Below, in pieces: positions 9,876 through 34,726 of a stretch of 38,017 bases of DNA (the first letter of the stretch is position 1; each line of letters starts with the position of its first letter). Below the pieces are notes generated by a model, which was not told where the DNA came from, made no database searches, and was given only the letters and a program-made list of their open reading frames with translations. Source of the stretch: Burkholderiales bacterium (GTDB lineage Bacteria; Pseudomonadota; Gammaproteobacteria; Burkholderiales; Burkholderiaceae_C); NCBI GenBank assembly GCA_019510465.1, contig JAEKKH010000052.1, forward strand, positions 1 through 38,017, written 5' to 3'. The position numbers and the translations under genes are program-made.

Positions 9876-9926
9876 GTGTCTGCCCACGCGCGCGGCGCCG
9901 CGCGCTCACCGGGCCAGGCCCGATGA
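9876..9926 (+). CDS. Bridging mini-ORF between response regulator and kinase
   Basis: GTG-initiated frame of 16 codons (VSAHARGAARSPGQAR) that begins two bases after the regulator stop and ends with a TGA overlapping the kinase ATG as ATGA (9923-9926). It contains an 18-bp perfect palindrome, GCGCGCGGCGCCGCGCGC, at 9888-9905, which would fold near the kinase start. It resembles the other bridging ORFs of this window in position and in its MSA-like start, but its start does not overlap the upstream stop, so it is the weakest of them. Confidence 0.35.
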   Translation: MSAHARGAARSPGQAR

Positions 9927-12232
9927 GCCCAGGCCGCGTGCGCCCGATGGGCTGGCGCCGGCTGCTCCTGCTGCCGATCGCGCTGCTGGCCTCGCTGGCG
10001 GTGGTGCTGCTTGCCCGCACCATCGCCCAGACGCCCAACCTCGACGCCAACTGGCGCCTCGACGGCAACGGGCACCTCCAGCTGATCGCCACCGACCTGC
10101 CCTGGATGCGCCCGGCGCTGGGGCATTCGCTGGAGGTCATCGTCGCCCCCGGCATCGCGCCGCTGGTGGTCGACGGCCGGCGCGTCGCGAACTCCACCCG
10201 CTGGATCGCCAACGACGAGGAACGCTCCGCCGCGGCGGAGCAGCAGCGCCGGATGGCGCGCGTCCTCGAGGCCGGCACGCCGGTGCTGCTCGGGTTCACC
10301 GACCGCATGAATGCCCGGGTGCAGCCGCACCCGCGCGGCTACACGACGCTGGGCATCACCTTCTGGCTGCTGTGCGGCCTGGGCCTGGCGCTGGAGCTCG
10401 TGGGCGCGGTCGTCGTGCTCGTGCGCCAGGACGTGCAGACCCTGCTCTACGCGATCATGGCGCAATGCCAGGCCGCGCAGCTCCTGCTGGCCGCGGTCGA
10501 CGCCGTACCAGGCATGGGCAACATCTCGCTGCTGGGCGGCAACGAGGCGGCGCTGCGCATGTCGCTGGACGTCGTCACCTGCGCCGCCCTGCTCAATGCG
10601 ACGCTGCTGTATCCCACGCCGCTGCCGCCGCGGCGGCTGCTGTCCTGGCTGTCGTGGATCGCGGCCGTGGTCTTCACCACCGCGGCGCTGGCGTTCGATC
10701 TTCCGCAGGCCTGGTGGTGGTGCGAGGCGCTGTCGCTGAGCACCGGCCTGCTGGTGGTCGGCCTGCTGGGCTGGTCGTACCGCATCACGCCGCACCCCTA
10801 CGCCACCGTGATGCGACGCCTGAGCATCGTCACCACGGGCAGCCTCGCGCTGGTCACCATCGTCGTCGCGCTCAGCGACCGCATGCCCGGCGAGGTGCAG
10901 TCGCTGGTGACCGCGGTGCCGGTCATCTGGACCGTGTTCTTCGCGTCGCTGCTGCTGATGTCGCCGTTCCTCGCGCGCTCGCAGCACATGATGCGCGAGT
11001 TCGCCATGCTGGCCGGCGTCAGCACGCTGGCGACCTCGGTCGACCTGCTGTTCGTCGCGGTGTTCTCGTTCAACCAGTTCGCGTCGATCACCACGTCGCT
11101 GTTCGTCGCGCTGGGCGTCTACGCGGCCTCGCGCCAGTGGCTGCTGGACCAGATGATCGGCGCCCGGGCCGTCACCACCGAGCGCCTGTTCGAGCACCTG
11201 CTGCGCATCGCGCGCAAGGTGGAGGAACAGCCCGAGCGCGCCGCCGACTGGCAGCTGGAGCTGTTCCACGCCGTGTTCCAGCCGCTGGTGGCGCGCCACG
11301 AGCCCGGCTTCACGCGCACCACGCGCTGGTACGAGGGCGGCGCGGGCCTCTTGGTGCCGCTGGCGGTCGAACCGCAGTCCGACGCGGCCTCCTCGCAGCT
11401 GGACGAAGGCGATCTGCCCGAGCCGCGCCTGATCGTGCTGCGATTCGCCGAGCGCGGCAAGCGCCTGTTCACCGCCGAGGACGCGCGCCTGGCCGACCGC
11501 ATCGTCGAACAACTGCGCCGCGCCGTCGCGCACGACCGCGCCATCGAGCAGGGCCGCAGCGAGGAGCGCGGCCGCATCGCGCAGGACCTGCACGACGACA
11601 TCGGCGCGCGCCTGCTGACGCTGATGTACAAGGCGCCCAACGCGGAGATGGAGGACTACGTCCGCCACACGCTGCAGGACCTGAAGACGCTCACGCGCGG
11701 CCTCGCGGCCACCAGCCACTACCTGTCGCACTCGGCCGGCGAATGGAAGGCGGACATCGCGCAGCGTCTCGCGCCCACCGGCTGCACGCTGGAATGGTCG
11801 TTCGAGCAGGACACCGAGATCCAGCTGAACGTCGTGCAGTGGTCGGGCCTGACCCGCATCCTGCGCGAACTGGTGAGCAACATCATCGCCCACGCCAAGG
11901 CCACGCACGCCTCGATCCACGGCGAGCTGCGCGATGGCGTGCTCGCGCTCACGGTCACCGACAACGGCGTGGGCGGCACGCCCAAGGACTGGTCGACCGG
12001 CCTGGGCCTGGGCGGCATCCGCAAGCGTGTGCGCATGCTGGGCGGCACGATCGCCTGGCAGCAGAACGAGCCCGAGGGCGTGCGCTGCGACGTCAGCGTT
12101 CCGCTGGCGGCGCCGTCGACGCCGTCGGTTCCTTCGACGCCGACCGTGCCGCTGAAGCCGCCGGTGCCTGCCATGCCGTCGCCGCGGGCGCCGACGGCGC
12201 CGTCCACGTCGCCCGGCGCAGCCGCGGGCTGA
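9923..12232 (+). CDS. Multi-span sensor histidine kinase (HisKA_3 type)
   Basis: Membrane kinase of 769 residues. One N-terminal span (LLLLPIALLASLAVVLLA) is followed by a periplasmic segment of about 100 residues. Then comes a run of six or seven spans (from TLGITFWLLCGLGLALELVG to about residue 400). A cytoplasmic GAF-like region (about 420-550) leads into the HisKA_3 box ERGRIAQDLHDDIGARLL with phospho-acceptor His 557. The ATPase motifs are RELVSNIIAHAKATHA (Asn 653), DNGVGG (680) and GLGLGGIRKRVRMLGG. The usual fold ends near Leu 728 (CDVSVPL). The remaining 41 residues are a Pro/Ser/Thr-rich tail (STPSVPSTPTVPLKPPVP) that runs antisense into the neighbouring dehydrogenase gene. It pairs with the response regulator upstream. 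The signal is unknown. Confidence 0.92.
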   Translation: MSPGRVRPMGWRRLLLLPIALLASLAVVLLARTIAQTPNLDANWRLDGNGHLQLIATDLPWMRPALGHSLEVIVAPGIAPLVVDGRRVANSTRWIANDEERSAAAEQQRRMARVLEAGTPVLLGFTDRMNARVQPHPRGYTTLGITFWLLCGLGLALELVGAVVVLVRQDVQTLLYAIMAQCQAAQLLLAAVDAVPGMGNISLLGGNEAALRMSLDVVTCAALLNATLLYPTPLPPRRLLSWLSWIAAVVFTTAALAFDLPQAWWWCEALSLSTGLLVVGLLGWSYRITPHPYATVMRRLSIVTTGSLALVTIVVALSDRMPGEVQSLVTAVPVIWTVFFASLLLMSPFLARSQHMMREFAMLAGVSTLATSVDLLFVAVFSFNQFASITTSLFVALGVYAASRQWLLDQMIGARAVTTERLFEHLLRIARKVEEQPERAADWQLELFHAVFQPLVARHEPGFTRTTRWYEGGAGLLVPLAVEPQSDAASSQLDEGDLPEPRLIVLRFAERGKRLFTAEDARLADRIVEQLRRAVAHDRAIEQGRSEERGRIAQDLHDDIGARLLTLMYKAPNAEMEDYVRHTLQDLKTLTRGLAATSHYLSHSAGEWKADIAQRLAPTGCTLEWSFEQDTEIQLNVVQWSGLTRILRELVSNIIAHAKATHASIHGELRDGVLALTVTDNGVGGTPKDWSTGLGLGGIRKRVRMLGGTIAWQQNEPEGVRCDVSVPLAAPSTPSVPSTPTVPLKPPVPAMPSPRAPTAPSTSPGAAAG

Positions 12233-13742
12233 CGCGATAGCGCTCGCCGCGGTAGAACGCGTCGAGCGCGTCGAGCAGGCGCACCGTGGCCGCTGCGCCC
12301 ACCTGCGCGAGCCACGCGAACGGGCCGGCCGGATAGTTGACGCCCAGAGTCATCGCGGCGTCCGCGCCGGCGACGTCGCACACGCCCTGCTCCACCGCGT
12401 CGCTGGCCTCGTTGACCAGCATGGCGATCGTGCGCGCGACCACCAGGCCCGGCACGTCGGCCATGCGCTGCGGCAGCCAGCCCAGCGCGCGCAGCACCTC
12501 GGCGACCTGCGCCGCGAAGTCGTCCGAGGCCTGCGCCGCGACGGTCCACGCGAGCGGCACGACCGGCGTTGCCGCGCCCGCGGCCGCGGGCCCCACCGGC
12601 CAGTCGAACAGGGCCACGTCGTGCACGCCGAGCGTGTTCGCGCACTCCGTGGCGCAGCGACCGTCGGTGCAGAGCAACCAGCCATCGCCGATGCGCAGGC
12701 GGATCCCGCCGCCCTCGCCGGCGGCCTCGCGCGTGAACCCCAGGCCCGAGCCCGCGAGGCGCGAGGCCAGCAGATCCGCGACCGGCCCCTCGCCATGCAG
12801 CACCAGCGGCACGGCCGGCAGCGTCGGCGCCGCGGCCTCGCCGTCGGCCGTCTTCGCAGCGCCATCGGGATAGCGGTAGAAGCCGCGGCCGGACTTGCGG
12901 CCCAGCAGGCCGCCGTCGACCATCTCGCGCTGCACCAGCGAGGGCTGGTAGCGCTTGTCGTAGAAGTTGGCCTCGTAGACCGATTGCGTGACGGCGAAGT
13001 TGGTGTCGTGGCCGATCAGGTCCATCAGCTCGCACGGCCCCATGCGGAAGCCCGCGCCGCGCACGCAGGCATCGAGCACCGCGGGCGTGGCCGCCTGCTC
13101 CTGCAGCAGCGCCAGCGTCTCGGCGTAGAACGGCCGCGCGATGCGGTTGACGATGAAGCCGGGCGTCGACTTCGTGTGCACCGCCGTCTTGCCCCAGTCG
13201 GCCGCCAGCATCGCGATGGCGTCGGCCACCGCCGGTTCCGTGGCCAGGCCCGAGACGACCTCGACCAGGCGCATCAGCGGCACCGGGTTGAAGAAATGCA
13301 TGCCCACCACGCGGCCGGGCAGCTCCAGCCCGCGCGCGACCGCGGTGATCGACAGCGACGACGTGTTCGACGCCAGCACGCAGTCGTGCGCCACGATGGC
13401 CTCGAGATCACGCATCAGCGCCTGCTTGACCGCCAGGTTCTCGACGATCGCCTCGATCACGAGCGCGGCGTCGCGCAACGCGTCCAGCGACGCCGCGACG
13501 GACAGGCGGCCGCGCGCCGCGGCCACGTCCTCGGGCGTCAGCTTGCCCTTGTCGGCAAGCCTGGCGAGCGTGGCGCCGAGCTGCTCGGCGGCCGCCGCCG
13601 CGGCACCCTCGCGGACATCGTACAAATGCACGGGATGCCCGGCCAGCAGCGCGACCTGCACGATGCCGATGCCCATCACGCCGGCGCCGATGACGGCGAC
13701 GGGACGATTGCGGAACAGGTTGGTTGGAGTCATGGCCGCCAT
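12093..13742 (-). CDS. paaH: 3-hydroxyacyl-CoA dehydrogenase (PaaH-like)
   Basis: NAD-dependent oxidation of a 3-hydroxyacyl-CoA, as in fatty-acid or phenylacetate (3-hydroxyadipyl-CoA) degradation. Of 549 residues, the NAD domain has VIGAGVMGIGIVQVALLAGH and the motifs SNTSSLSITAVA and GMHFFNPVPLMRLVEVVSG (catalytic His). Two C-terminal 3HCDH domains follow (TPGFIVNRIARPFYAETL, LIGHDTNFAVTQSVYEANF, and a second copy ending NYPAGPFAWLAQVG). The family normally ends near YRVSPRLRR, about residue 510. Here about 38 Ala/Ser/Pro-rich residues follow, antisense to the kinase tail. No other paa gene is in view, so the substrate is open. A start at 13733 (MTPTNLF) is equally possible. Confidence 0.88.
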   Translation of the reverse strand: MAAMTPTNLFRNRPVAVIGAGVMGIGIVQVALLAGHPVHLYDVREGAAAAAAEQLGATLARLADKGKLTPEDVAAARGRLSVAASLDALRDAALVIEAIVENLAVKQALMRDLEAIVAHDCVLASNTSSLSITAVARGLELPGRVVGMHFFNPVPLMRLVEVVSGLATEPAVADAIAMLAADWGKTAVHTKSTPGFIVNRIARPFYAETLALLQEQAATPAVLDACVRGAGFRMGPCELMDLIGHDTNFAVTQSVYEANFYDKRYQPSLVQREMVDGGLLGRKSGRGFYRYPDGAAKTADGEAAAPTLPAVPLVLHGEGPVADLLASRLAGSGLGFTREAAGEGGGIRLRIGDGWLLCTDGRCATECANTLGVHDVALFDWPVGPAAAGAATPVVPLAWTVAAQASDDFAAQVAEVLRALGWLPQRMADVPGLVVARTIAMLVNEASDAVEQGVCDVAGADAAMTLGVNYPAGPFAWLAQVGAAATVRLLDALDAFYRGERYRVSPRLRRATWTAPSAPAATAWQAPAASAARSASKEPTASTAPPAER

Positions 13743-14008
13743 TTTCCGTTATGGCTGGCGTCAGGCTGCGGAAGGGGTCGGCTTCGACAATTCCCGTGGT
13801 CGCGATTCCCGCGGCCCTTTTCCGCCCGCGTGGCCGCGTCTCACGCGGTGTCGGGTCGATACGAGCGTCCAAGCCTCCCTGTGGACGCCACGCCGATCCG
13901 ACGGGTGGACCTTCTCTTTCCCACGCATACCGCGGTTAGAAACCGAACCGGTCGTCCCGCCCTGGCACACTGGGGCTGGCGCACTCCCGCGCCGCCCTGG
14001 CCCTGCCG

Positions 14009-14186
14009 ATGCCCGACGACCTGTCCGACCCCTCCGTCTCCGATGACGAACCCAGCGCCGCGCAGGCGGCCGCGAACGCGCGCGCCCTGCGCGGCGCCGC
14101 GAAGCTGGCCGTCGAGGCGACGACGGGGCTGACCGATCTCGTCGAGGCCGTGCATGCGCGCGTCGCCACGCTGCCGCGTCACGCGC
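14009..14186 (+). pseudogene. Out-of-frame N terminus of the alpha/beta hydrolase gene
   Basis: From the ATG at 14009 this frame reads MPDDLSDPSVSDDEPSAAQA, then ANARALRGAAKLAVEATTG, LTDLVEAVHARVATLP, which looks like the normal N-terminal region of a Burkholderiales family of hydrolases. It then passes into nonsense (RHARRRRQRRHAA) just where the next frame takes over with VTRAVGGSVDTLLPVLAPLL. The two frames differ by one base (mod 3). I infer a frameshift, probably with a short deletion, near 14165-14190. It may be a real mutation or an assembly error. Confidence 0.55.
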
Positions 14187-15194
14187 GCCGTCGGCGGCAG
14201 CGTCGACACGCTGCTGCCGGTGCTCGCGCCGCTGCTGGCACCGGGCGGCGCGGCGCCTGCGCTGCCCTCGCCCGAACGCGAGGCGGTGCTCGCCGCGCTC
14301 AACGGCGTCCTGGGCGATCGCCTGGCGCGCACGGCCAACCCGCTCGCCATTGGCATGGCGCTGCGGCGCGACGGCCGCGCGCTCGTCCTGCGGCGCGACG
14401 CGCTGGCCGCGGCACTGCCCGACGCCGGCGAACGGGTGCTGGTGCTCGTCCACGGCCTGTGCATGAACGACCTGCAATGGCGACGCGACGGCCACGACCA
14501 CGGCGCCGCGCTCGCCGCCGCGCTCGGCTTCACGCCGCTGTACCTGCACTACCCCAGCGGGCTGCACGTGTCGACCAACGGGCGCGCACTGGCGAACCTG
14601 CTCGAGCAACTGCTCGCGCAATGGCCGCGGCCGATCGCGCGCTTCGCGATCGTCGGCCACAGCATGGGCGGCCTCGTCGCGCGCAGCGCGCTGCACTACG
14701 GCCGCGCGGCGGGCCGGCACTGGGTCGACCGGCTCGACGACTTCGCCTGCCTGGGCACGCCGCACCACGGCGCACCGCTGGAGCGTGCCGGCCAGGGCCT
14801 GCACATGCTGCTCGACGCCACGCCCTACGCCGGGCCGTTCGGCCGCCTCGCCAAGCTGCGCAGCGCCGGCATCACCGATCTGCGGCACGGCAGCGTCGTC
14901 GACGAGGACTGGCTGAACGCCGACCGCTTCGAGAGCGCCACCGACCGCCGCCAGCCCGTGCCGCTGCCCACGGGCCCGCGCTGCTTCGCGCTGGCGGGCA
15001 CGCTGGCCGGCGCGGGCAAGGCGCTCGGCGACGGGCTCGTGCCCCTGGCGAGCGCGCTCGGCAAGCATCGGCTCGCGCGGCGCACGCTCGGGTTTGCGCC
15101 GTCCCACCAGCGCGTGGTGGCGGACACCAACCACCTGCAGCTGTTGTCCAGCGCCGCGGTGTTCGAGCAGTTGCGCGCCTGGCTGAGGCACTAG
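14154..15194 (+). CDS. Alpha/beta hydrolase (lipase/PGAP1-like), probably frameshifted near start
   Basis: The frame encodes a serine hydrolase core. It has the oxyanion segment VLVLVHGLCMNDLQW, the nucleophile elbow IVGHSMGGLVARSA (Ser 170 counting from 14154), the following LGTPHHGAPLERAGQGLHML, DGLVPLASALG with a candidate acid, and a late His in ADTNHLQLL. TPHHGAPLE is typical of lipase/PGAP1-like esterases acting on lipids or esters. The first ten residues from the ATG at 14154 (MRASPRCRVT) look like read-in from another frame, and the true N terminus seems to lie at 14009 in a different frame. The gene ends in a shared CTAG with the convergent peroxiredoxin gene (stops overlap by four bases). 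Confidence 0.7.
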   Translation: MRASPRCRVTRAVGGSVDTLLPVLAPLLAPGGAAPALPSPEREAVLAALNGVLGDRLARTANPLAIGMALRRDGRALVLRRDALAAALPDAGERVLVLVHGLCMNDLQWRRDGHDHGAALAAALGFTPLYLHYPSGLHVSTNGRALANLLEQLLAQWPRPIARFAIVGHSMGGLVARSALHYGRAAGRHWVDRLDDFACLGTPHHGAPLERAGQGLHMLLDATPYAGPFGRLAKLRSAGITDLRHGSVVDEDWLNADRFESATDRRQPVPLPTGPRCFALAGTLAGAGKALGDGLVPLASALGKHRLARRTLGFAPSHQRVVADTNHLQLLSSAAVFEQLRAWLRH

Positions 15195-15970
15195 CGCCGG
15201 CGCGACGCGAGCCAGGCCAGCGTCGCCTCCGAATCGCCCACCAGCCGGCCGTTGACGAACACCTGCGGCACCGTCTGCGCGCCCGCGATCGCCCGCAGCG
15301 CGCGCGAGCGCTGCAGCGGCGGCAGCGAGATGTCGGTGTAGGCGATGCCCGCTTCCTGCAGCGCCGACTTGGTGCGCGCGCAGAACGGGCAGCCCTCGCG
15401 GCTGAACATCGCGACCTCGTCCGGCAGCCTCGCCGACGGGTCCAGGTAGCGCAGCATCGTGTCGGCGTCGGACACCTCGAACGGGTCGCCCGGCTTGTCC
15501 GGCTCGACGAACAGCTTCTCGATGACGCCGTCGCGCACCAGCATCGAGTAGCGCCACGAGCGCGCGCCGAAGTTGAGGTCGCTCTTGTCCACGAGCATGC
15601 CCATCCCGCGCGTGAACGCGGCGTTGCCGTCGGGCAGCAGGCGCACCTTGCTGGCCGCCTCCTCCTGGCCCCACTGCGCCATCACGAACGGGTCGTTGAC
15701 CGCGACACAGACGATCTCGTCGATGCCGCGCTTCTCGAATTCCGGCGCCAGTTCCTCGTAGCGCGGCAGATGCACCGTCGAGCACGTCGGCGTGAACGCA
15801 CCCGGCAGCGCGAAGACGATCACGTTGCGGCCCCCGAAGATCTTCGCCGTGTTCGTCTCCTCCCAGTCGGCGCCGCGACGCAGCTTGAAGGTGACATCAG
15901 GCACGCGGTCGCCCGCCTTGCGGGCATTCGCGGCGGGGCCGGTGCCCAGGTCGCAGTGATCGGTGGTCAT
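15191..15970 (-). CDS. Peroxiredoxin-glutaredoxin fusion (Prx5-Grx hybrid)
   Basis: Glutathione-dependent hydroperoxide reductase of 259 residues. The Prx5/AhpC-TSA domain (about 15-170) has the peroxidatic motif LPGAFTPTCSTVHLP with Cys 63 and WRYSMLVRDGVIEKLFVEPD. A short linker leads to a glutaredoxin domain with the dithiol site REGCPFCARTK, the cis-proline TVPQVFVNGRLVGDSE and the usual length. The order and length match the PGdx hybrid of Haemophilus and many Proteobacteria, in which the glutaredoxin half recycles the peroxidase with glutathione. The start at 15970 has GGAG six bases upstream; longer in-frame starts lack this. Divergent from the MFS gene. No OxyR gene is visible nearby. 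Confidence 0.94.
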   Translation of the reverse strand: MTTDHCDLGTGPAANARKAGDRVPDVTFKLRRGADWEETNTAKIFGGRNVIVFALPGAFTPTCSTVHLPRYEELAPEFEKRGIDEIVCVAVNDPFVMAQWGQEEAASKVRLLPDGNAAFTRGMGMLVDKSDLNFGARSWRYSMLVRDGVIEKLFVEPDKPGDPFEVSDADTMLRYLDPSARLPDEVAMFSREGCPFCARTKSALQEAGIAYTDISLPPLQRSRALRAIAGAQTVPQVFVNGRLVGDSEATLAWLASRRR

Positions 15971-16101
15971 GCGCAGCTCCTTCGCTTGACGGACCGCTGC
16001 GCGCGGCAAGACGCATGCCGCCGAGGCCGGTTCACATGCCGAACCGAAGGGTGCACCGCCCCAAGACCCGCCGCGGGCAAGGATTGCTGCAACGCAGCAC
16101 A

Positions 16102-17373: not shown

Positions 17374-17414
17374 CGTCGCTCGTGGCGGCCGTCGACCATC
17401 CGCCCCCCCCCGAT

Positions 17415-17906
17415 CTACAGTCGACGCTCGCGCCGCTTGCGGGCCGGCTGTGCCACTTCGCGATCCAGCCATGTGAGGAACTTCGCCACCTCGGCGTCCG
17501 TCGACTTTGCCAGCACCCGGGCGGCGCCGTCGGACGAGATGCGCCACGTCATGGGGTCGCCCAGTTCGCGGCACTGGCCGGGCACGAGGCGCAGCAGCAC
17601 GGCCTCGGCGGGCAGCGCGGCGATCTTGCGCACGTCGGCGGTGGCGATCCAGCAGCGGGCGTCGGCATCGACGTGAATGTCCATCGAGCGGCCGCGGAAC
17701 TCGTAGTAGCGCCCGGCGCGGTCGCGCAGCGCCAGGTGCCGGGCGTGCCGTGGCAGCGAGGTCATGATCTCGACCAGCGGCCGGCCGAAGATCGCGAGGA
17801 TGGGGGCGCCGAAGACCAGGCCGAACGGTCCGTACCAATGCCAGCCGGCGTACAGCACGGCCGCCGACAGGGCGATGCCGAACGCGATGTCGACGGCCAG
17901 CTTCAT
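17415..17906 (-). CDS. Membrane-anchored protein of unknown function
   Basis: 163 residues. The N terminus carries one or two hydrophobic helices (IAFGIALSAAVLYAGWHW and FGLVFGAPILAIFG), with a predicted cytoplasmic remainder rich in charged residues. That part includes HLALRDRAGRYYEFRGRSMD, VDADARCWIATADVRKIAAL and a basic C terminus (ARKRRERRL). I do not recognise a named family, although the composition and codon use look like a genuine gene. Its start overlaps the stop of the epimerase gene by four bases (ATGA), so the two are translationally coupled and probably co-expressed. Confidence 0.75.
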   Translation of the reverse strand: MKLAVDIAFGIALSAAVLYAGWHWYGPFGLVFGAPILAIFGRPLVEIMTSLPRHARHLALRDRAGRYYEFRGRSMDIHVDADARCWIATADVRKIAALPAEAVLLRLVPGQCRELGDPMTWRISSDGAARVLAKSTDAEVAKFLTWLDREVAQPARKRRERRL

Positions 17907-18952: not shown

Positions 18953-19053
18953 GGGCGGCGTTGCGGGCCTCGATTGTGCCGCGTGCGGCCGCGCCGAACC
19001 CGCCGGCCCGGGCGTCATCCGCGGCGCCTCGACGGGCGCCGTGGCGGCGCGAC

Positions 19054-22878: not shown

Positions 22879-22916
22879 CCCCAAAGGTTGATCGAGAGGC
22901 TGCTCTTGATCTTGGC

Positions 22917-22951
22917 AGAGGCGGACTCCTGAATCCGCCTCTCTTTTTTTT
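22917..22951 (+). terminator. Intrinsic terminator of the TonB-dependent receptor gene
   Basis: AGAGGCGGA (22917-22925) pairs perfectly with TCCGCCTCT (22934-22942), giving nine base pairs with an eight-base loop. It is followed by C and eight T residues. It lies 38 bases after the receptor stop. Confidence 0.93.
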
Positions 22952-23039
22952 GCTCATCGCCGATTCCCGGGGCGCCCGGGGTTCACAGGCGGGTCGCTTG
23001 AACCGCCAGCGGGTGCCATGACGAGCAGCTGGACGAGCG
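22944..23039. repeat. Dispersed intergenic repeat, copy 2
   Basis: The 28 bases from the T-tract onward (22944-22971) match the reverse complement of 4885-4912 at 26 positions. The 21 bases at 23019-23039 are identical to 4843-4863 in the same orientation. The spacer between the blocks (about 47 bases) contains an imperfect hairpin (GGCGG...CCGCC, 22998-23017) not present in copy 1. Confidence 0.7.
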
Positions 23040-23088
23040 CATGACGCAAGCGCGACGCGGCACCGCGCGTGTTTCGCCCGCGCGGCGC

Positions 23089-25428: not shown

Positions 25429-25472
25429 CTGGTCGTCCGCTCCGCGCCACGGGGTGATGACGAATCTAGCAA

Positions 25473-25486
25473 TACCGGCTCCGGTA
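25473..25486. promoter_or_regulatory. 14-bp inverted repeat upstream of the MocR-type gene
   Basis: TACCGGCTCCGGTA has two perfect six-base arms around CT. It lies 45-58 bases upstream of the preferred regulator start, a position suited to autoregulation, and just upstream of a possible -10 (TAGATT on the minus strand). Whether it is bound is not known. Confidence 0.35.
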
Positions 25487-25588
25487 CGCGCCGCCATTGC
25501 GACGAACAGCGGCTTTCCAGTGCCTGCCGGCGGCTGGAACGCGCCCAGTTGCGGGTCGCCGAGGCCATGGCGCCGGCGCCGCGAGCGC

Positions 25589-25978: not shown

Positions 25979-26598
25979 CAGCGTGCTCCCAGGTAGACGA
26001 TGGTGAACACGCCGATCCAGACGATGTCCAGCGCGTGCCAGAACAGGCTGAAGCAGGCCAGGCGGCACAGCACCATCGGTCGCCAGCCCAGGCTGAAGAC
26101 CTGCGCCAACATCACGACGAGCCAGGCGAGGCCGGCGGCGACGTGCAGGCCATGCAGGCCCACCAGCGCGAAGAAGGCGGACAGGAACGCGCTGCGCTGT
26201 GGCACGGCGCCGCGCGCCAGCATGGCGCCGAACTCGCCGAGCTCCAGCGCGAGGAAGGCCGCTCCCAGCGCGAACGTCGCCACGGCGCACAGCACCATCA
26301 GCGCACGGCGGCGCAGCTCGGTGGCCACGGACATCATCGCGCAGGCGAAGCTCGAGAACAGCAGGCAGCCGGTCTCGGCCAGCACGTGTGCGCGGTCGAA
26401 CAGCTGCGCGCCGCGCGGGCCGCCCGCATCGCGGCCCGCGAGCACCGCGTAGGCCGCGAAGAACGCCGAGAACACGATGATGTCGCTGAGCAGGAACAGC
26501 CAGAAGCCGTAGCTGATGATCACCTTGCGTGGCGACGCGCCGCGTTCGGACACCGGCACCCCGGCCTCGCGCACATCCGCGGGCGCGACGGCGTTCAT
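25978..26598 (-). CDS. cyoC: Cytochrome o ubiquinol oxidase subunit III
   Basis: 206 residues with five spans: YGFWLFLLSDIIVFSAFFAA, ETGCLLFSSFACAMMSVA, LMVLCAVATFALGAAFLALE, FFALVGLHGLHVAAGLAWLV and CFSLFWHALDIVWIGVFTIV. LHGLHVAAGL and FWHALDIVWI are the conserved heme-copper oxidase subunit III motifs. The gene overlaps cyoD and is preceded by a chain of three mini-ORFs from cyoB, the last ending TGATG on the cyoC start. GGAG lies eight bases before the start. Confidence 0.94.
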   Translation of the reverse strand: MNAVAPADVREAGVPVSERGASPRKVIISYGFWLFLLSDIIVFSAFFAAYAVLAGRDAGGPRGAQLFDRAHVLAETGCLLFSSFACAMMSVATELRRRALMVLCAVATFALGAAFLALELGEFGAMLARGAVPQRSAFLSAFFALVGLHGLHVAAGLAWLVVMLAQVFSLGWRPMVLCRLACFSLFWHALDIVWIGVFTIVYLGAR

Positions 26599-26660
26599 CA
26601 GGCAGGCTCCGCGCGGCGCGCCGCGGTCGATTCGCCCCTGGTGCGGCCGTGCGGGCTCAT
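26598..26660 (-). CDS. Bridging mini-ORF 3 between cyoB and cyoC
   Basis: 20-codon frame (MSPHGRTRGESTAARRAEPA) whose ATG overlaps the stop of mini-ORF 2 (ATGA) and whose TGA overlaps the cyoC ATG (TGATG). It is a diverged relative of mini-ORFs 1 and 2: it keeps MS at the start and AARRAE at the end, and the GCGGAG of RRAE gives cyoC its ribosome binding site. Confidence 0.5.
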   Translation of the reverse strand: MSPHGRTRGESTAARRAEPA

Positions 26661-26725
26661 GAGGCGACCTCCGCCCTACGGGCTGCGGCGCGAGCGCCCT
26701 TCGGAGTGGCCGGGCGTGCGCTCAT
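26657..26725 (-). CDS. Bridging mini-ORF 2 between cyoB and cyoC
   Basis: 22-codon frame beginning [10 protein letters not shown] and ending AARRAEVAS. Its ATG overlaps the stop of mini-ORF 1 and its stop overlaps the start of mini-ORF 3, both as ATGA. Its GCGGAGGTC (Ala-Glu-Val) places GGAGGT six bases before the next start. It is the second copy of the 65-bp tandem unit. Confidence 0.55.
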   Translation of the reverse strand: MSARPATPKGARAAARRAEVAS

Positions 26726-26790
26726 AAGGCAACCTCCGCCCTACGGGCTGCGGCGCGAGCGCCCTTCGGAGCGGCCGGGCGTGCGCTCAT
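26722..26790 (-). CDS. Bridging mini-ORF 1 between cyoB and cyoC
   Basis: 22-codon frame beginning [10 protein letters not shown] and ending AARRAEVAL. Its ATG overlaps the cyoB stop (ATGA, 26787-26790), preceded by a G-run that could serve as ribosome binding site. Its stop overlaps the start of mini-ORF 2. Two amino-acid differences separate the products of copies 1 and 2. The peptide is Arg/Ala-rich and may have no function beyond coupling translation. Confidence 0.55.
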
Positions 26791-28751: not shown

Positions 28752-28754
28752 CGG

Positions 28755-29654
28755 TCAGCCTCCCATCGCCGGCATCGTCGTCGCGGCCGGCGCCTTCGAC
28801 GTGTCGGCAAGAATCGTCTCGAACAGGGCGGGCGCCACGGGCGCGTAGGTCGCCGCCGCGGCGGCCACGCCGGGGCGCGCGAGCGCCGCGTAGTGCGCGG
28901 CGTCGAGCGGCTGCGCGCCGCTGCGCACGCCGGCCAGCCAGCGCGCGAAGTCGTCCGGCGGCAGGGCGACCGCGTCGAAGCGCATGTCGGAGAAGCCGTC
29001 GCCGCTGAAATTGGCCGACAGGCCGGCGTACGTGCCGGGGTGCTCGGCCAGCAGGTGCAGCGTCGTCGTCATGCCGCCCATCGTGTAGATCTGCGAGCCC
29101 AGCTGCGGCACGAAGAAGCTGTTCATGACGCTGGCCGACGTCAGCCGCAAGCGCAGGGGCGTGCCTGCAGGAACGACCATCCGGTTGACGCTCGCGACGC
29201 CGAGGTCTGGATAGATGAACAGCCACTTCCAGTCCAGCGACACCACCTGCACCGTCAACGGCGGGTTGCGCGAGGCCACCGGCCGCGCCGGATCGAGGTC
29301 GTGCGAGCCGATCCACGCGATGCCGCCGAGGAACAGGATCACCAGCGCCGGGATGGACCACACCGTGACCTCGATCGCCCCGGAGTACGCCCAGTCCGGA
29401 TCGCGCCTCGCGCGGCGGTTCCCGGCCCGGAACCACCACGCGAACACGAGCGTCAGCACGATCACCGGCACGATCACGGCCAGCATGATGACCGTGGCGT
29501 TCAACAGGATCGTGCGCTCGGCGGCGGCGATCGGCCCGTGCGGGTCGAGCACGCCTTGCTGCCAGGGGGCGACGCTGGGCAAGAGTGGGTCCTCGGTGGC
29601 TGTCGATGGCGTGCCGTCGAGCGACGGCCTCGCAACCGCTCCGATGGGCAACAA
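28755..29654 (-). CDS. cyoA: Cytochrome o ubiquinol oxidase subunit II
   Basis: 299 residues from a TTG at 29654. Two spans (ATVIMLAVIVPVIVLTLVFA, VTVWSIPALVILFLGGIAWI) anchor a periplasmic cupredoxin-like domain. CyoA signatures are VVSLDWKWLFIYPDLGVASV, TSASVMNSFFVPQLGSQIYT and LLAEHPGTYAGLSANFSGDG. The CuA ligands of cytochrome c oxidases are absent, so the donor is ubiquinol. The N terminus is odd: no ATG is found in frame before the first span, and the lipoprotein signal and Cys of E. coli CyoA are missing before VLDPHGPIAAAE. The start is therefore uncertain (TTG at 29654 or a GTG further in). Confidence 0.88.
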   Translation of the reverse strand: MLPIGAVARPSLDGTPSTATEDPLLPSVAPWQQGVLDPHGPIAAAERTILLNATVIMLAVIVPVIVLTLVFAWWFRAGNRRARRDPDWAYSGAIEVTVWSIPALVILFLGGIAWIGSHDLDPARPVASRNPPLTVQVVSLDWKWLFIYPDLGVASVNRMVVPAGTPLRLRLTSASVMNSFFVPQLGSQIYTMGGMTTTLHLLAEHPGTYAGLSANFSGDGFSDMRFDAVALPPDDFARWLAGVRSGAQPLDAAHYAALARPGVAAAAATYAPVAPALFETILADTSKAPAATTMPAMGG

Positions 29655-29698
29655 TCGGGCCCACCGGCGCCGCGCGGCGCCCCGCCATCGAAGGCCGC

Positions 29699-30169
29699 AT
29701 GCCCGTGAACCTGTCCACCGAATGGTCCTGGCGATTCGGCGTGATGCCGCAGCCCTGGTTTTCCGTGTTCGCGGCGCTCGTCGCCTGCGCGCTGCTGTGC
29801 GTCGCCGTCGTCTCCACCCTGCGCACTGCCGAATTCGACGCCGGTGCGCTGCGGACGACCGCCACCGTGCTCGCCGCCGGCAACGGCGGCCCGATGACGC
29901 GGCCCGTCGCGCAGTTCACCGATGCGAACGGCCACGCCTGGCGCGTGCGCTTCCGCGTCCGCAGCAATCCGCCGGCGCACCATGCCGGCGAGCAGGTGGG
30001 CGTGCGCTACCACCTCGAGGACCCGGCGGACGCGCGCTTCGACACCTTCCTCGAGCGGCGTTTCCTCGCGCTGCTGAGCGGCGTCCTGAGCCTGCCGTTC
30101 TTCCTGATGTCGTGGCTGGCGTGGCGGTTCAGGCGGCGATTGTTCCGGCAGGCCACGCGAGGCGATTGA
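29699..30169 (+). CDS. DUF3592-type membrane protein
   Basis: 156 residues: an N-terminal span (PWFSVFAALVACALLCVAVV), a central beta-rich part (ALRTTATVLAAGNGGPMTRP, VAQFTDANGHAWRVRFRVRS, GEQVGVRYHLEDPADARFDT) and a C-terminal span (FLALLSGVLSLPFFLMSWLA) before a basic tail. This layout and the VRYHLEDPADARFD phrase match DUF3592 proteins, whose function is unknown. It is divergent from cyoA with only about 44 bases between the starts, and convergent with phnN (10 bases between the stops). Confidence 0.78.
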   Translation: MPVNLSTEWSWRFGVMPQPWFSVFAALVACALLCVAVVSTLRTAEFDAGALRTTATVLAAGNGGPMTRPVAQFTDANGHAWRVRFRVRSNPPAHHAGEQVGVRYHLEDPADARFDTFLERRFLALLSGVLSLPFFLMSWLAWRFRRRLFRQATRGD

Positions 30170-30179
30170 CCGCGCGCGC

Positions 30180-30758
30180 TCAGGCTTCGTCGCGGCGCAT
30201 CGCGTCCCACCAGCGCGACAGCGCCGCGACGCACTCGCCGAGATCACCGTCGTTGACGAGGCTCAGGTCGGCGTGGACGGGCCCGGCGAACGCGCGCGCC
30301 AGGCGGGCGTCGCGGGCGGCCGCGTCCTCGCGCCCGCGGGCGGCCAGGCGTGACGCGAGCAGGTCCGCGGGCGCGCTCACGGAGACGACGCGCACGCCCG
30401 GCGCCTGGGTGCGCAACACGCCCAGGTGGGCCCGCGAACCGTTGAGCACCACCCAGCGGCCATCGGCCAGGGGCGCGAGTTCGCTGCGGCGCACGCCGTA
30501 GTCCAGGCCGTGCGCGCGCCACCACGTGGCGAGCACGCCGCGACCGCGCAGGTCGGCGAAGTCGCCGGGCGTGACCGCCTCGTGCGGTTCGGAGCCGTCC
30601 GGCGCGCGGGTGATCACGCGCCGCGCGACGGCGGGTGCCGCCCGGCCCAGCGACGCGTGCCAGCCGCGCAGCACGCTGTCCTTGCCCGCGCCCGACGGCC
30701 CCACCACGACGATCAGCCGCTGCGCTCCCGCGATGGTCGGCAGCCCGATCCCGCTCAT
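30180..30758 (-). CDS. phnN: Ribose 1,5-bisphosphate phosphokinase PhnN
   Basis: ATP-dependent conversion of ribose 1,5-bisphosphate to PRPP, the last step of the C-P lyase route. The 192 residues fit the family. The P-loop LIVVVGPSGAGKDSVLRGWH is followed by RRVITRAPDGSEPHEAVTPG (as in PhnN and guanylate kinase-like folds) and GRWVVLNGSRAHLG. The start overlaps the stop of the DUF1045 gene (ATGA). It lies on the phnF side of the locus, not in the phnG-M operon. Confidence 0.93.
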   Translation of the reverse strand: MSGIGLPTIAGAQRLIVVVGPSGAGKDSVLRGWHASLGRAAPAVARRVITRAPDGSEPHEAVTPGDFADLRGRGVLATWWRAHGLDYGVRRSELAPLADGRWVVLNGSRAHLGVLRTQAPGVRVVSVSAPADLLASRLAARGREDAAARDARLARAFAGPVHADLSLVNDGDLGECVAALSRWWDAMRRDEA

Positions 30759-31495
30759 CGCGCGAAGTCGAAACGGCGCGCGAGGCGGAAGTCCGCGCCC
30801 GGCGCGTCCTCGACGAACAACGCGACGCCGTCGCAGCGCAGCGGCGATGCGAGCGCGGCGGCGAACTCGCGGCGCGCCGCGTCGAGCAGGTCGTCGCGCA
30901 GCCGTTCGCCCTGCGTATCGGCCGGCAACGGATCGCTGAGCGTCATGTGGAAGCGCCACTGCTCGAAGACGTGCGCGTAGCCCCAGCGCGCGACGTTCTC
31001 CCGCCGAGGCCCGTCGAGCGCCGCGGCCTGCCGGCGCACGGTCTCGTCGGCCGAGGCCGGCCGGCGGAACTCGTCGAACAGGCGCACGCAGTCGTCGGCC
31101 AGGTCGCGCAGCGGCTGGCCGGTCGCGGTTGCGCCGGCCTCGAGGGGCCTCAGCGCGAGGAAATCGCCCAGCGTCGCGACGTGCAGGGCCGGCATCGCGA
31201 ACGGCGTGCGCTCGTCGACGAAGTGCGACACCGCCGCCAGCAGCTGCGACCGCGACAGTCCCTCGCGCAGCGCGAACGGCGGCTTGAGCGTGGCGTGGAA
31301 GCCGTAGCGGCGCGGACCGGCGCGATGCGCGCCGCCCCCGTCGCTCGCGCCGGACTCCGGGTCGCGGCCCAGCCAGCGGCATCCGGCCGTCCACAACGGA
31401 TGATGCGCGGCGGGCGCGAAGTACAGCGCGTAGCGCGCGCCTCCGCGCTCGTGGGCGCCGGCATGGGCGCCGTCGGACGACCCGGCGCCGCTCAC
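30755..31495 (-). CDS. DUF1045 protein, 2H-phosphoesterase-like, phn-linked
   Basis: 246 residues starting at a GTG, 12 bases after the phnF stop. RYALYFAPAAHHPLWTAGCR, WLGRDP is the DUF1045 signature. Two His-x-Thr motifs, GFHATLKPPFAL and RFHMTLSDPL, are spaced as in 2H phosphoesterases, which open cyclic phosphodiesters. DUF1045 genes are regular members of phn clusters in Proteobacteria. The C-P lyase product is a 1,2-cyclic phosphate that PhnP opens in E. coli. No phnP is visible here, so this protein may do that step (inference). Coupled to phnN by an ATGA overlap. Confidence 0.85.
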   Translation of the reverse strand: MSGAGSSDGAHAGAHERGGARYALYFAPAAHHPLWTAGCRWLGRDPESGASDGGGAHRAGPRRYGFHATLKPPFALREGLSRSQLLAAVSHFVDERTPFAMPALHVATLGDFLALRPLEAGATATGQPLRDLADDCVRLFDEFRRPASADETVRRQAAALDGPRRENVARWGYAHVFEQWRFHMTLSDPLPADTQGERLRDDLLDAARREFAAALASPLRCDGVALFVEDAPGADFRLARRFDFAR

Positions 31496-31507
31496 GGGAC
31501 GACCCGC

Positions 31508-32272
31508 TCATGCGAGCGCGTCCGGTTCGACCACGAGCTGCACCGCGTCGGCAGCGAACAGCGTGCTGCCCGTCTCGACCGGCACGCCGGCGCGATCGAC
31601 GTTGACGTACTGCACGACGAGCACCGGCTGCGACATCGGACGCGCCAGCGCGTCGGCCTCGGCCTGCGTCGGCAGGCGGGTCGATACCACGCTGCGCGAG
31701 CGCGTGTAGTCGGCCACGCCGAGCTCGGCGAGCGCGCGCGTGATGCTGCCGTGGCGCGCGACGGGCGCGGCGATGTCGGCCAGGCGCGGGCAAGGAAACG
31801 CCGCGGTGGACAAGCCCACGCGGCGGCCGCGCACCGACGAGCGGGTCTCCAGCACCACCACCTTGGCGCGCGCGGGTAGCTTCAAGGCGTCGGCCCACTC
31901 GCCGGCCGGCAGCACCGCGTGCGACAGCAGCTCGCGGCCGGCCGTCTCGCCCGTGCGCGCCAGGTTCTCGCTCAGGCGCGTCCGGCGCCGCAGGGCGTAG
32001 TCCAGCACGAGCTCGCGCACGAAGGTGCCGCAGCCCTGGCGCACGTTCAGGTGGCCCTCGCGCACCAGCGCCTGCACGGCCTGGCGCAACGTGTGGCGGT
32101 TGACGCCGAAGCGCTCGGCCAGCGCCGTCTCGTTGGGCAGCCGCTCGCCGGGCGCGACCCGGCCGGCGAGGATGTCGGCGCGCAGCTGCGCGGCGATCGC
32201 CTGCCAGCGCGCGACCGTGGCGTCGTTCACGTCGAGCGGCGAGGGAGCCGCAGCGTTGTCGTCCTTGAGCAT
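31508..32272 (-). CDS. phnF: PhnF-type GntR/HutC transcription regulator
   Basis: 254 residues. The N-terminal GntR winged helix is QLRADILAGRVAPGERLPNE, TALAERFGVNRHTLRQAVQA, LVREGHLNVRQGCGTFV. It is followed by a UTRA ligand domain (DYALRRRTRLSENLARTGET, with LLSHAVLPA and ending VVQYVNVDRAGVPVETGST). The text matches PhnF, which controls phn genes in response to phosphonate-related or phosphate-derived ligands. It is divergent from phnG with an 80-base gap containing a palindrome. It probably represses both sides of the locus. DUF1045 and phnN follow in the same unit. Confidence 0.92.
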   Translation of the reverse strand: MLKDDNAAAPSPLDVNDATVARWQAIAAQLRADILAGRVAPGERLPNETALAERFGVNRHTLRQAVQALVREGHLNVRQGCGTFVRELVLDYALRRRTRLSENLARTGETAGRELLSHAVLPAGEWADALKLPARAKVVVLETRSSVRGRRVGLSTAAFPCPRLADIAAPVARHGSITRALAELGVADYTRSRSVVSTRLPTQAEADALARPMSQPVLVVQYVNVDRAGVPVETGSTLFAADAVQLVVEPDALA

Positions 32273-32332
32273 GTCGTCACCGGAAGGTCAAGAAACTGTC
32301 ATCGGGTCTGCCGATACTGGCACGCATCTTCA

Positions 32333-32346
32333 GTCATCTAGATGAC
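32333..32346. promoter_or_regulatory. Candidate PhnF operator palindrome
   Basis: GTCATCTAGATGAC is a perfect 14-bp palindrome in the 80-base gap between the divergent phnF and phnG. The GT...TA...AC layout fits sites bound by HutC/GntR-type regulators. It ends only six bases before the phnG ATG, so bound protein would block transcript elongation or cover the phnG initiation region. A possible -10 (GATACT, near 32312) lies upstream. Confidence 0.55.
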
Positions 32347-32352
32347 GTCACC

Positions 32353-32829
32353 ATGACCGACACCGATCCGGACCCCGCCGCAGGCGCCCGCCAATGCTGG
32401 CTGGCCGTGCTGGCGCACGCGCCGCGCGCCCTGCTCGAGCAGCATGCCGCGGCGCTGCCGACGACCGGCTTCACCCGGCTGCGCGCGCCCGAGATCGGAC
32501 TGACGATGGTACGCGCCCGCATCGGCAACCAGGGCGACCGGTTCAACCTCGGCGACGCCACGGTCACGCGCTGCGTCGTGCGCCACGTCGGCGCGGACGG
32601 CCGCGTCGCGGCCGGCGTCGGGTACGTGCTGGGCCGCGACGAGGCGCGCGCCGAATGGGTGGCGCGTCTCGACGCGCTGCTGCAGCAGCCAGCGCAGCAC
32701 GACGCGCTGATGCGCGGCGTCGTCGCACCGCTCGCGGCCGAGATCGCGCGCCTGCGCGTCGCCGCCGCGGCGCGCACCGCGAGCTCGCGCGTCGCGTTCG
32801 ACACGCTGGCCTCGGCGAGCACCCCATGA
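32353..32829 (+). CDS. phnG: C-P lyase subunit PhnG
   Basis: Part of the PhnGHIJ core that moves the phosphonate onto ribose-triphosphate. 158 residues. Family phrases visible: QCWLAVLAHAPRALLEQHAA, GFTRLRAPEIGLTMVRARIG, QGDRFNLGDATVTRCVVRHV and GVGYVLGRDEARAEWVARLD. The ATG at 32353 follows the operator-like palindrome directly and has no clear ribosome binding site, which is unusual for the first gene of an operon. It ends in an ATGA with a 14-codon mini-ORF that leads to phnH. Confidence 0.95.
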   Translation: MTDTDPDPAAGARQCWLAVLAHAPRALLEQHAAALPTTGFTRLRAPEIGLTMVRARIGNQGDRFNLGDATVTRCVVRHVGADGRVAAGVGYVLGRDEARAEWVARLDALLQQPAQHDALMRGVVAPLAAEIARLRVAAAARTASSRVAFDTLASASTP

Positions 32830-32870
32830 GCGCGCGCCCGAACGCGGCCCCTGCGGAGGTGTCCCGATGA
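32826..32870 (+). CDS. Bridging mini-ORF between phnG and phnH
   Basis: 14-codon frame (MSARPNAAPAEVSR). Its ATG overlaps the phnG stop (ATGA, 32826-32829) and its TGA overlaps the phnH start (ATGA, 32867-32870). GCGGAGGTG (Ala-Glu-Val) places GGAGGT six bases before phnH. It shares the MSARP start and the AEV end with the cyo mini-ORFs although the loci are unrelated. Confidence 0.5.
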   Translation: MSARPNAAPAEVSR

Positions 32871-33511
32871 CCGCCCTGCTCGCCCGCATGGGCGCCGGCT
32901 TCGCCGATCCGGTGCATGGCGCCCAGCAGACCTTTCGCGCGCTGCTGCGGGCGATGTCCGAACCCGGACGCGTGCTGCCGCTGCCCGCGGCGGCGATCGC
33001 CGGCCTCGAGGACGCCGGCGCCGAGCCGCATCCGCCGCTCGGCGTCGCGCTCGCCGCGACCCTGCTGACGCTGCTCGACGCCGACACGCCCGTGCACCTG
33101 GCCGGTGGCCTCGACACCGCCGACGCGCGGGCCTGGCTGCGCTTCCACACCGGCGCCCGCGCGCTGCCGCAGGCCACCGCGATGACGGTGGCGCTGGCGC
33201 GCGATGTCGACGCGACGCTGTGGCGTGCGCTCGATCCCGGCACGGACGACGCGCCGCAAGCCGGCGCCACGCTGTTCGTGCAGGTGGACGCGCTGTCCGA
33301 GCAGCCGCTGCCCGGGGCGGTCGCGCTCAAGCTGCGCGGCGCCGGCATCGAGACCTCGCGCGACCTCGCCGTCGCCGGCCTGCCTCCTGCGTTCTGGCGC
33401 TGGCGCACGGCCCTGCGCGCCGAGTTGCCGCGCGGCATCGACCTCGTGCTCGCCTGTGACGCGCGTGTCGCCGCGGTCCCCCGCAGCACCCACGTCGACA
33501 GCGAGGGCTGA
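32867..33511 (+). CDS. phnH: C-P lyase subunit PhnH
   Basis: 214 residues, the usual size (E. coli 194). The family signature is GFADPVHGAQQTFRALLRAM and SEPGRVLPLP. The middle and end read TLLDADTPVHLAGGLDTADA, RAWLRFHTGA, VALKLRGAGIETSRDLAVAG and LPPAFWRWRTALRAELPRGI. PhnH forms the homodimer at the centre of the C-P lyase core. The start overlaps the mini-ORF stop; phnI begins one base after its stop. Confidence 0.95.
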   Translation: MTALLARMGAGFADPVHGAQQTFRALLRAMSEPGRVLPLPAAAIAGLEDAGAEPHPPLGVALAATLLTLLDADTPVHLAGGLDTADARAWLRFHTGARALPQATAMTVALARDVDATLWRALDPGTDDAPQAGATLFVQVDALSEQPLPGAVALKLRGAGIETSRDLAVAGLPPAFWRWRTALRAELPRGIDLVLACDARVAAVPRSTHVDSEG

Positions 33512-33512
33512 G

Positions 33513-34616
33513 ATGTACATCGCGGTCAAAGGCGGCGAACACGCCATCGAGGCCTCGCGCCGGCTGCTCGCCGCGGCGCGGCGCGGCGACACGGCCTTGC
33601 CCGAGCTGGCGGTCGCGCAGATCGAGCAGCAGATGGGCCTGCTGGTGGGCCGCGTGATGGCGGAGGCTTCGCTGTACGACCCGCCGCTGGCCGCGCTGGC
33701 GCTGCGCCAGGCCTGCGGCGACGCCATCGAGGCCGCGTTCCTGCTGCGCGCGTATCGCACGACGCTGCCGCGCTTCGCGTACAGCGAGCCGGTGGACACG
33801 GAGCGCATGCGCGTCGATCGCCGCGTCTGCGCGATCTTCAAGGACCTGCCCGGCGGCCAGCTGCTGGGCCCGACCTTCGACTACACGCAGCGCCTGCTGG
33901 ACTTCGCGGCCCAGGCCGGCGAGCCAGAGGCCATCGGCGGCGCAGGGAGCGTCGACGTCGAGGCGGTTCCCAACGCGTTGTCGCAACTGGCGCGCGAAGG
34001 ACTGGTCGAACCGTGCGAGCCGTCCGACGGCGATCCCGAGCCGCCGGACATCACGCGCGACCCGCCCGCCTATCCGCTGCCGCGTGCCGGCTGGCTGCAG
34101 ATGCTCGCGCGCGCCGACGAGGGCTGGGTGCTGGGCATGGGCTACTCGACGCAGCGCGGGTACGCGCACACGCACCCGTTCGCGGGTGACCTGCGTTCGG
34201 GCCGGGTGGAGGTGGAGCTGGTGCCCGACGAGCTCGACTTCGCGATCGCGATCGGCGAGGTCGAGCTCACCGAGTGCCAGATGATCAACCAGTTCGTCGG
34301 CAGCGCCGAGGTCGCCCCCGTGTTCACGCGCGGCCAGGGCCTCGTCTTCGGACGCGGCGAGCGCAAGGCGATCGCGATGTCGCTGGTCGACCGCGCGCTG
34401 CGCGCCGCGGAGTTCGGCGAGGAGGCGGCCAGCCCCGCGCAGCAGCAGGAGTTCGCGCTGCCGCAGGGCGACAGCGTCGAGGCCTCGGGCTTCGTGCAGC
34501 ACCTGAAGCTGCCGCACTACGTGACCTTCGAGTCCGAGCTGCAGCTCATCCGCAAGCTGCGCGAGGACGTGCATGCGCGGGCGGTCGATGCCGCGCGCGA
34601 AGGAGAACCGGAATGA
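33513..34616 (+). CDS. phnI: C-P lyase subunit PhnI
   Basis: 367 residues (E. coli 354). PhnI is the nucleosidase that, with PhnG, H and L, joins phosphonate to the ribose of ATP. Visible family motifs: MYIAVKGGEHAIEASRRLLA, QIEQQMGLLVGRVMAEASLY, AFLLRAYRTTLPRFAYSEP, RVCAIFKDLPGGQLLGPTFD, GMGYSTQRGYAHTHPFAGDL, RSGRVEVEL and ECQMINQFVGSAEVAPVFTR. AAGGAG near its end (REGEP codons) serves the ATG that overlaps its stop, which here starts a 37-codon mini-ORF, not phnJ. Confidence 0.97.
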   Translation: MYIAVKGGEHAIEASRRLLAAARRGDTALPELAVAQIEQQMGLLVGRVMAEASLYDPPLAALALRQACGDAIEAAFLLRAYRTTLPRFAYSEPVDTERMRVDRRVCAIFKDLPGGQLLGPTFDYTQRLLDFAAQAGEPEAIGGAGSVDVEAVPNALSQLAREGLVEPCEPSDGDPEPPDITRDPPAYPLPRAGWLQMLARADEGWVLGMGYSTQRGYAHTHPFAGDLRSGRVEVELVPDELDFAIAIGEVELTECQMINQFVGSAEVAPVFTRGQGLVFGRGERKAIAMSLVDRALRAAEFGEEAASPAQQQEFALPQGDSVEASGFVQHLKLPHYVTFESELQLIRKLREDVHARAVDAAREGEPE

Positions 34617-34726
34617 CGAACGAAGGGCGCAAGCGCGCGGCCGCCGCGCGCGGCCGCTCCGGAGCAAGGCCGCGCGCCCCCTCGGGGGGCTGGCATCGGT
34701 ACTCCGATGACTGGGGGCTCACATGA
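34613..34726 (+). CDS. Bridging ORF between phnI and phnJ
   Basis: 37-codon frame. The ATG overlaps the phnI stop (ATGA, 34613-34616), with AAGGAG seven bases upstream; the TGA overlaps the phnJ start (ATGA, 34723-34726). The product starts MTNEGRKRAAAARGRSGARP and ends SDDWGLT. It holds GC-rich palindromic sequence (GCGGCCGC twice, at 34638-34666, and CCCCCTCGGGGGG at 34677-34689). A GGGGG five bases before phnJ is a poor ribosome binding site, so coupling through this ORF may matter for phnJ expression. Confidence 0.5.
   Translation: MTNEGRKRAAAARGRSGARPRAPSGGWHRYSDDWGLT

Follow-up and report, generated by a model that had tools for sequence, protein, structure and literature searches.

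We describe here a short tandem repeat, family 1, found between the cyoB and cyoC genes in a 38,017-nucleotide stretch of DNA from a soil bacterium of the Burkholderiales (contig JAEKKH010000052.1 of GenBank assembly GCA_019510465.1; hereafter the window), and at dozens of unrelated operon junctions in the same genome. The window is contig G000:C87 of a 5.28-Mb genome in 516 contigs, and the host genus appears to be Scleromatobacter, that of Scleromatobacter humisilvae (the best PhnJ relative is in NZ_JAJLJH010000003.1, 92%). From sequence comparison we consider it quite probable that family 1 is a non-autonomous, tandem-expanding dispersed repeat seated mainly at the DTGA overlaps of operons, spread by a putative mobiliser and tolerated there because a micro-open reading frame (micro-ORF) in each unit would relay ribosomes from the upstream to the downstream gene.

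The organization of the repeat is well illustrated by its three units at cyoB-cyoC, all on the reverse strand: unit 1 (26726..26790, 65 bp), with a micro-ORF of 22 aa whose ATG overlaps the cyoB stop, unit 2 (26661..26725, 65 bp, 22 aa) and a diverged unit 3 (26599..26660, 62 bp, 20 aa), which ends in a stop overlapping the first codon of cyoC at 26598. An initial annotation of the window had described a single bridging ORF at this junction (26598-26790); the junction is indeed bridged, but by a chain of three ORFs (22, 22 and 20 aa) linked by ATGA and followed by CyoC (206 aa). Each unit displays the order ATGA, hairpin 1, a short stretch, hairpin 2, GGAGG, about 7 nt, and then the ATGA or GTGA with which the following unit or gene starts. 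In unit 1, hairpin 1 (TGAGCGC...GCGCTCG; 26756..26789) contains the TG of the start codon, hairpin 2 (GCCC-GTA-GGGC) lies at 26738..26748, and the Shine-Dalgarno-like GGAGG (26733..26737) stands 7 nt ahead of the next ATGA. The hidden Markov model (HMM) consensus of the unit reads ATGAGCGCACGCCCGGCCGCTCCGAAGGGCGCTCGCACCGCAGCCCGCAGGGCGGAGGTTGCCTC followed by ATGA, and in its typical form a unit is an ORF of 20-22 codons that begins at ATGA and, behind GGAGG, ends in a stop overlapping the next ATGA. Units are mostly spaced by 65 or 62 bp and occur one to five in tandem; since both lengths leave 2 modulo 3, a frame that starts at one ATG can terminate at the TGA within the ATGA that follows.

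The genome contains 43 copies of the 15-mer ATGAGCGCNCGCCCG and none of its reversed control, and a 136-bp unit pair finds 52 matches, so that the sharing of sequence between unrelated operons reported in the initial annotation proves stronger than was claimed. An HMM built from the unit-pair matches recovered 80 units in 44 arrays in the fetched loci, of which 41 arrays were examined after removal of three that were duplicated or cut by contig ends. Two loci (L002 and L004) have four micro-ORFs each, and a third (L017) has four family-1 frames, a 14-aa family-2 frame and then the gene; the family-2 leader ATGAGACATCCYGTGTCGACCCG also follows the family-1 arrays of L017 and L036. Within the genome, ungapped 65-bp copies are 0.870 identical to each other; they are 0.815 identical to those of the congener G139 (4 units) and 0.700 identical to 13 units of other genera. 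Tandem copies are closer to each other inside one array (0.926, 30 pairs) than across arrays (0.868). The 62-bp and 65-bp forms differ by alignment gaps at two places (1+2; by eye three single gaps), which alter the middle of the peptide while phase is retained. The first junctions of the arrays are nearly all ATGA and the end junctions ATGA or GTGA. Searches of eight loci against Rfam yielded no match at the gathering score.

Examination of the gene contexts revealed that in 36 of the 41 arrays the stop of the upstream coding frame is the first DTGA of the array, which runs in the same direction as the upstream gene; a same-strand coding sequence likewise follows 36 of the 41. When the relay of overlapping ORFs was followed through the 35 testable arrays, 27 ended coupled to the downstream frame and a further six were fused to it in frame. 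Insertion of 1 or 2 nt at random lowered the coupled outcome to 28.8% and 31.9%, respectively. Unit length modulo 3 was 2 in 97 of 112 units, 0 in 13 and 1 in two, although the copies are related, with neither tandem copies nor a site held twice (L055, L213) being independent, and these counts are therefore no test on independent samples; the lengths further hinge on the DTGA nearest the expected end, where L228 and L031 are cut short. Phase 0 can still deliver ribosomes through fusion, which phase 1 cannot. The substitutions in 43 units of the same genome were 0.079, 0.044 and 0.061 at the three codon positions, and in 21 units from relatives 0.199, 0.196 and 0.226. This evenness suggests that the peptide is not what is kept: apparently phase is conserved and peptide sequence is not. 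Peptide function was accordingly set aside as a candidate, no codon-position constraint having been found in either set of units.

To compare these junctions with their orthologs, joined flanks were taken from 20 arrays selected because these flanks were clean, 17 of which were searched in four genomes of the genus. The 40 stretches fetched (located places such as L039 in G200 and G201 and L025 in G200 were not among them), together with the window's four insert sites, gave 21 sites and 49 comparisons. The insert was absent from 40 of the 49, one of these being a paralog in the same genome (at L021, with an aligned upstream protein 98% identical), and 20 of the 21 selected sites had at least one uninserted counterpart, L036 alone having none. 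The comparison that the initial annotation had proposed thus bears out its suggestion that small inserts entered pre-existing stop/start junctions, with phase mostly keeping the overlaps, except at the regulator-kinase locus discussed below, whose three rows were kept outside the 49. An exact 4-nt overlap (-4) was present in 18 of the 49 comparisons; the other uninserted junctions were offset, partly through late N-terminal alignment, or had short spacers, L021 showing 11, 14 and 26 nt and phnI-phnJ 1 and 5 nt. Five comparisons instead held one unit of about 62 bp of other sequence (L005, L026 and cyo in G201; L008 and L038 in G139), one, L036 in G139, held a unit-like insert of greater length, and three held a different spacer (L036 in G200; L037 in G139 and G201). 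As bare junctions are the commoner state, insertion rather than loss is the probable direction of change.

The hairpins were named by eye and then counted on 38 units: 86.6% of cells in the named structure are paired, and the covariation score is 0.210, versus 0.100 in shuffles (none of 500 reaching 0.210) and at most 0.116 when the structure is slid. Judged from the aligned sequences, hairpin 2, beside the Shine-Dalgarno-like motif, clearly covaries (32 cells changed on both sides), and hairpin 1, which holds the start codon, does so weakly. A best-stem search run without a control found hairpin 2 across lineages as GCCC-GCA-GGGC, GTGC-GAA-GCAC, GGCC-GCA-GGCC and GCGC-GCA-GCGC, and hairpin 1 as TGAGCGCC pairing with GGCGCTCG in many units, with single examples of TGAGCCCC/GGGGCTCG, ATGAGCGC/GCGCTCAT and GTGAGCGC/GCGCTCAC.

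Beyond the genus, 55 of 200 genomes of the same family match at E 1e-3, the source genome included (four candidates scored per genome). At the level of the order six of 399 match at E 1e-6, all within the family and one being the source genome; with two candidates scored per genome, absence outside the family is weakly tested. In relatives, 33 arrays, mostly best matches, represent 32 distinct sites, one site being present twice. Of the 32, 28 start where an upstream coding frame stops, as judged with the same codon score, its model being derived from another genus; the exceptions are L054, L056, L072 and L215. Units are also held by three plasmid records of Variovorax and one of Diaphorobacter. 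On the plasmids of Variovorax sp. SRS16 and PBL-E5 the unit directly adjoins the beginning of an alpha/beta hydrolase gene and is absent from the listed features. One query against phages gave no match.

These observations suggest the following course of events. Ribosomes finishing the upstream gene at the TGA would unfold hairpin 1 and initiate at the overlapping ATG; after translating the roughly 20 codons of the micro-ORF, they would terminate at the following TGA and reinitiate at that point with the aid of GGAGG. By such stepwise restarts an insert would leave its operon coupled, and the relay would make the repeat tolerable at coupled junctions. The repeat would spread through a mobiliser, and the arrays would grow by tandem duplication.

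Several results weigh against this reading. Five of the 41 arrays fail the upstream-stop test (L024, L027, L033, one in L040, and L031, which sits at a contig end and is untestable in this respect), and in both Variovorax plasmid units the listed upstream neighbor is on the other strand, in a gene table that is incomplete. Five arrays (L011, L013, L019, L023 and again L027) have no coding sequence after them, which implies that a downstream start is not required. Among the 35 testable arrays one breaks and one enters the wrong frame, and merely reaching the downstream frame, as 33 of 35 do, is also achieved by 79% and 51% of the shifted controls. With respect to structure, hairpin 2 accounts for 32 of the 35 two-sided changes and hairpin 1 for three; neither the pairs changed on both sides (four; reached by 203 of 500 shuffles) nor the further pair types (10; reached by 333 of 500) are more numerous than in shuffles. 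Thermodynamic folding of one unit was no better than shuffles (z 0.14), and RNAalifold gave two pairs, neither belonging to a hairpin. Finally, no mobiliser was found: the four genus genomes have one to three Y1_Tnp (RAYT-type) genes each (L263-L270), and these eight loci of about 3 kb are without a significant unit (the best unit hits being two, of E 0.86 and 0.88). Of the five arrays with no coding sequence after them by codon score, L013, L019 and L023 do start at a gene's stop, so that insertion needs no downstream start.

The closest known counterparts are the mycobacterial interspersed repetitive units (MIRUs), which occur in tandem copies, in the orientation of transcription and at DTGA insertion sites. 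They are said to be without dyad symmetry. Family 1 resembles them as a short dispersed repeat of variable tandem number (65/62-bp units in arrays of one to five), with an internal ORF overlapping its neighbors at -4 (36 of 41 upstream, 27 of 35 downstream), seated in what were probably pre-existing DTGA/start sites (20 of 21 with uninserted counterparts). It differs from them in its covarying hairpin 2, in its betaproteobacterial hosts, in forming coupled chains of up to five units and in having sequence dialects in many genera. It is thus MIRU-like in its presumed working. Passages of PMC12548453, citing Supply et al. 1997, describe MIRUs as apparently mobile elements that insert at start codons and whose internal ORF is coupled, with a spacing of -4 nt, to the gene there. 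We tentatively entertain the stronger possibility that family 1 is a mobile element that targets the stop/start overlap itself with a structured, self-coupling cassette, of an origin independent of MIRUs, spread through a betaproteobacterial family with a dialect in each lineage and with unit number tuning operon output.

Several alternative explanations were weighed against the preferred one of a repeat tolerated through ribosome relay. Repetitive extragenic palindromic (REP) sequences and bacterial interspersed mosaic elements (BIMEs), with their REP-associated tyrosine transposases (RAYTs), are non-autonomous, hairpin-forming and present in many copies. Family 1 might be a palindromic repeat of this type moved by a RAYT (Y1_Tnp), its junction seat reflecting a TGA target together with harmlessness, and its micro-ORF being without a role. 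The palindromic units, one hairpin clearly covarying and the other weakly so, the many copies, the Y1_Tnp genes in all four genus genomes and the arrays at gene ends with no gene following are consistent with this. However, unlike REP/BIME elements, the units are direct tandem repeats at stop/start overlaps, and 36 of 41 arrays are co-oriented with the upstream gene; phase is mostly preserved and the micro-ORF comes with a GGAGG ahead of the next start; moreover, no significant unit accompanies the eight Y1_Tnp loci. We hence regard this explanation as rather unlikely. A further proposal, somewhat more doubtful still, is microhomology recombination or gene conversion among the many gene starts of the form ATGAGC, without a transposase. 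The predominance of ATGA at first junctions and of ATGA or GTGA at end ones, as well as the greater similarity of copies within arrays (0.926) than between them (0.868), would fit such a process. Yet the covarying hairpin suggests that structure is recognized, and at several target starts the sequence is not ATGAGC but ATGACC, ATGAAC or GTGA.

That the units are genes for functional small proteins is very improbable: they are open frames behind GGAGG, and copies in the same genome encode similar peptides, but there is no third-position excess of changes, the 62-bp versus 65-bp gaps change the middle of the peptide and yet keep the phase, and fused forms occur. Chance open frames in GC-rich spacers, which might suit the regulator-kinase locus and three of four bridged pairs in the sample below (6.5% of shuffled spacers being bridged), are for family 1 refuted by the same 65-bp sequence at dozens of unrelated junctions, and as a general explanation are the least credible of all.

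The frequency of bridging as such was assessed on a sample of 20 contigs picked by number, which total 138,899 bases and gave 54 co-oriented gene pairs when genes were called with a simple codon model trained on eight long window ORFs (3,373 codons; not all of them verified genes). The 54 pairs comprised 11 direct overlaps, four bridged pairs, one of which is a unit array, and 39 uncoupled pairs. With shuffling restricted to pairs with spacers of at least 20 nt (36 in the sample and 12 in the window), four of 36 sample pairs were bridged versus 470 of 7,200 shuffled trials (6.5%), and five of 12 window pairs versus 512 of 2,400 (21%). Counting all spacers, six of 20 window pairs are bridged, two of which look spurious, and none of 24 co-oriented pairs is bridged in the syntenic stretches of congeners. 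The initial annotation had proposed a scan against a shuffled control; because the observed frequency is not clearly above that of shuffled spacers, being near chance at this GC content in the 20 contigs, the claim as worded receives no clear support. The idea that the bridging topology is improbable in itself is likewise unsupported, and we rejected topology as a discriminating test.

At the other junctions of the window the initial annotation had listed four more bridging ORFs and ascribed them, with cyoB-cyoC, to a single family. Bridging holds at four of the five loci (surE-pcm, cyoB-cyoC, phnG-phnH and phnI-phnJ), and their inserts (311, 192 (65+65+62), 41 and 110 bp, respectively) fall into three sequence families, so that one family for all five loci was rejected in favor of three repeat families and one native spacer. 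The names surE, pcm, cyoB, phnG and phnH come from NCBIfam matches above cut-off; the match of cyoC falls under the curated cut-off, and PhnI and PhnJ, with no NCBIfam match, were named from context. The 41-bp phnG-phnH insert (32826..32866, forward strand), judged by eye to be a family-1 unit with an internal 24 bp missing, is lacking at the same junction in G139 and G201, and its micro-ORF (32826-32870) reads MSARPNAAPAEVSR and then stops. At surE-pcm a family-2 insert of 311 bp with a 3x90-bp tandem (6732..7042, reverse strand) is absent in G139, G200 and G201; direct reading gives a single ORF of 104 aa spanning the tandem (6728-7042). At phnI-phnJ a family-3 insert of 110 bp (34613..34722, forward strand) is absent in G139 and G201 and is read directly as an ORF of 37 aa (34613-34726).

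Family 2 is a 90-bp GC-rich tandem (window 6737-7017) with 32 matches in its own genome, and family 3 a CGCGCGCCCCCTCGGGGGGCTGG-type repeat (window 34613-34722) with 37. Both were placed by a rough script choosing the best-scoring DTGA and start, with no count taken; several family-3 sites lie off stop/start junctions by this rough test, and the association of the two families with junctions looks looser. At the window junctions where they occur they have the same outcome as family 1, yet they are separate repeats.

The fifth ORF, in the regulator-kinase spacer (9876..9926, forward strand), is not a family member: it starts at a GTG beyond the upstream stop without touching it, and G139 and G201 have a native spacer of 49 nt there, unrelated in sequence. 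In G200 (L221, G200:C22) a family-1-like unit lies inside this spacer. Elsewhere in the window a 28-nt sequence containing an A/T run occurs at 4885-4912 and, inverted and 93% complementary, 18 kb away at 22944-22971; close to both copies there is also a 33-nt stretch (4843-4875 and 23019-23051), similar at the two places.

In a literature search that covered few subscription papers, no account of such an element outside mycobacteria or in this group was recognized, which is weak evidence of novelty. Family 1 also recalls the engineered bicistronic design, in which, as part of PMC12548453 describes it, a short leader ORF brings the ribosome to the next gene; the likeness lies in a short ORF that would deliver the ribosome onward, and the difference in the design being engineered, single and not mobile. 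The presence of this repeat suggests that elements at translationally coupled junctions are not just a mycobacterial oddity, and that selfish DNA inside dense operons is a wider, perhaps convergent, lifestyle. Its arrays of one to five units, together with the uninserted alleles in congeners and in a paralog, are ready material for counting the steps of ribosome termination and reinitiation.

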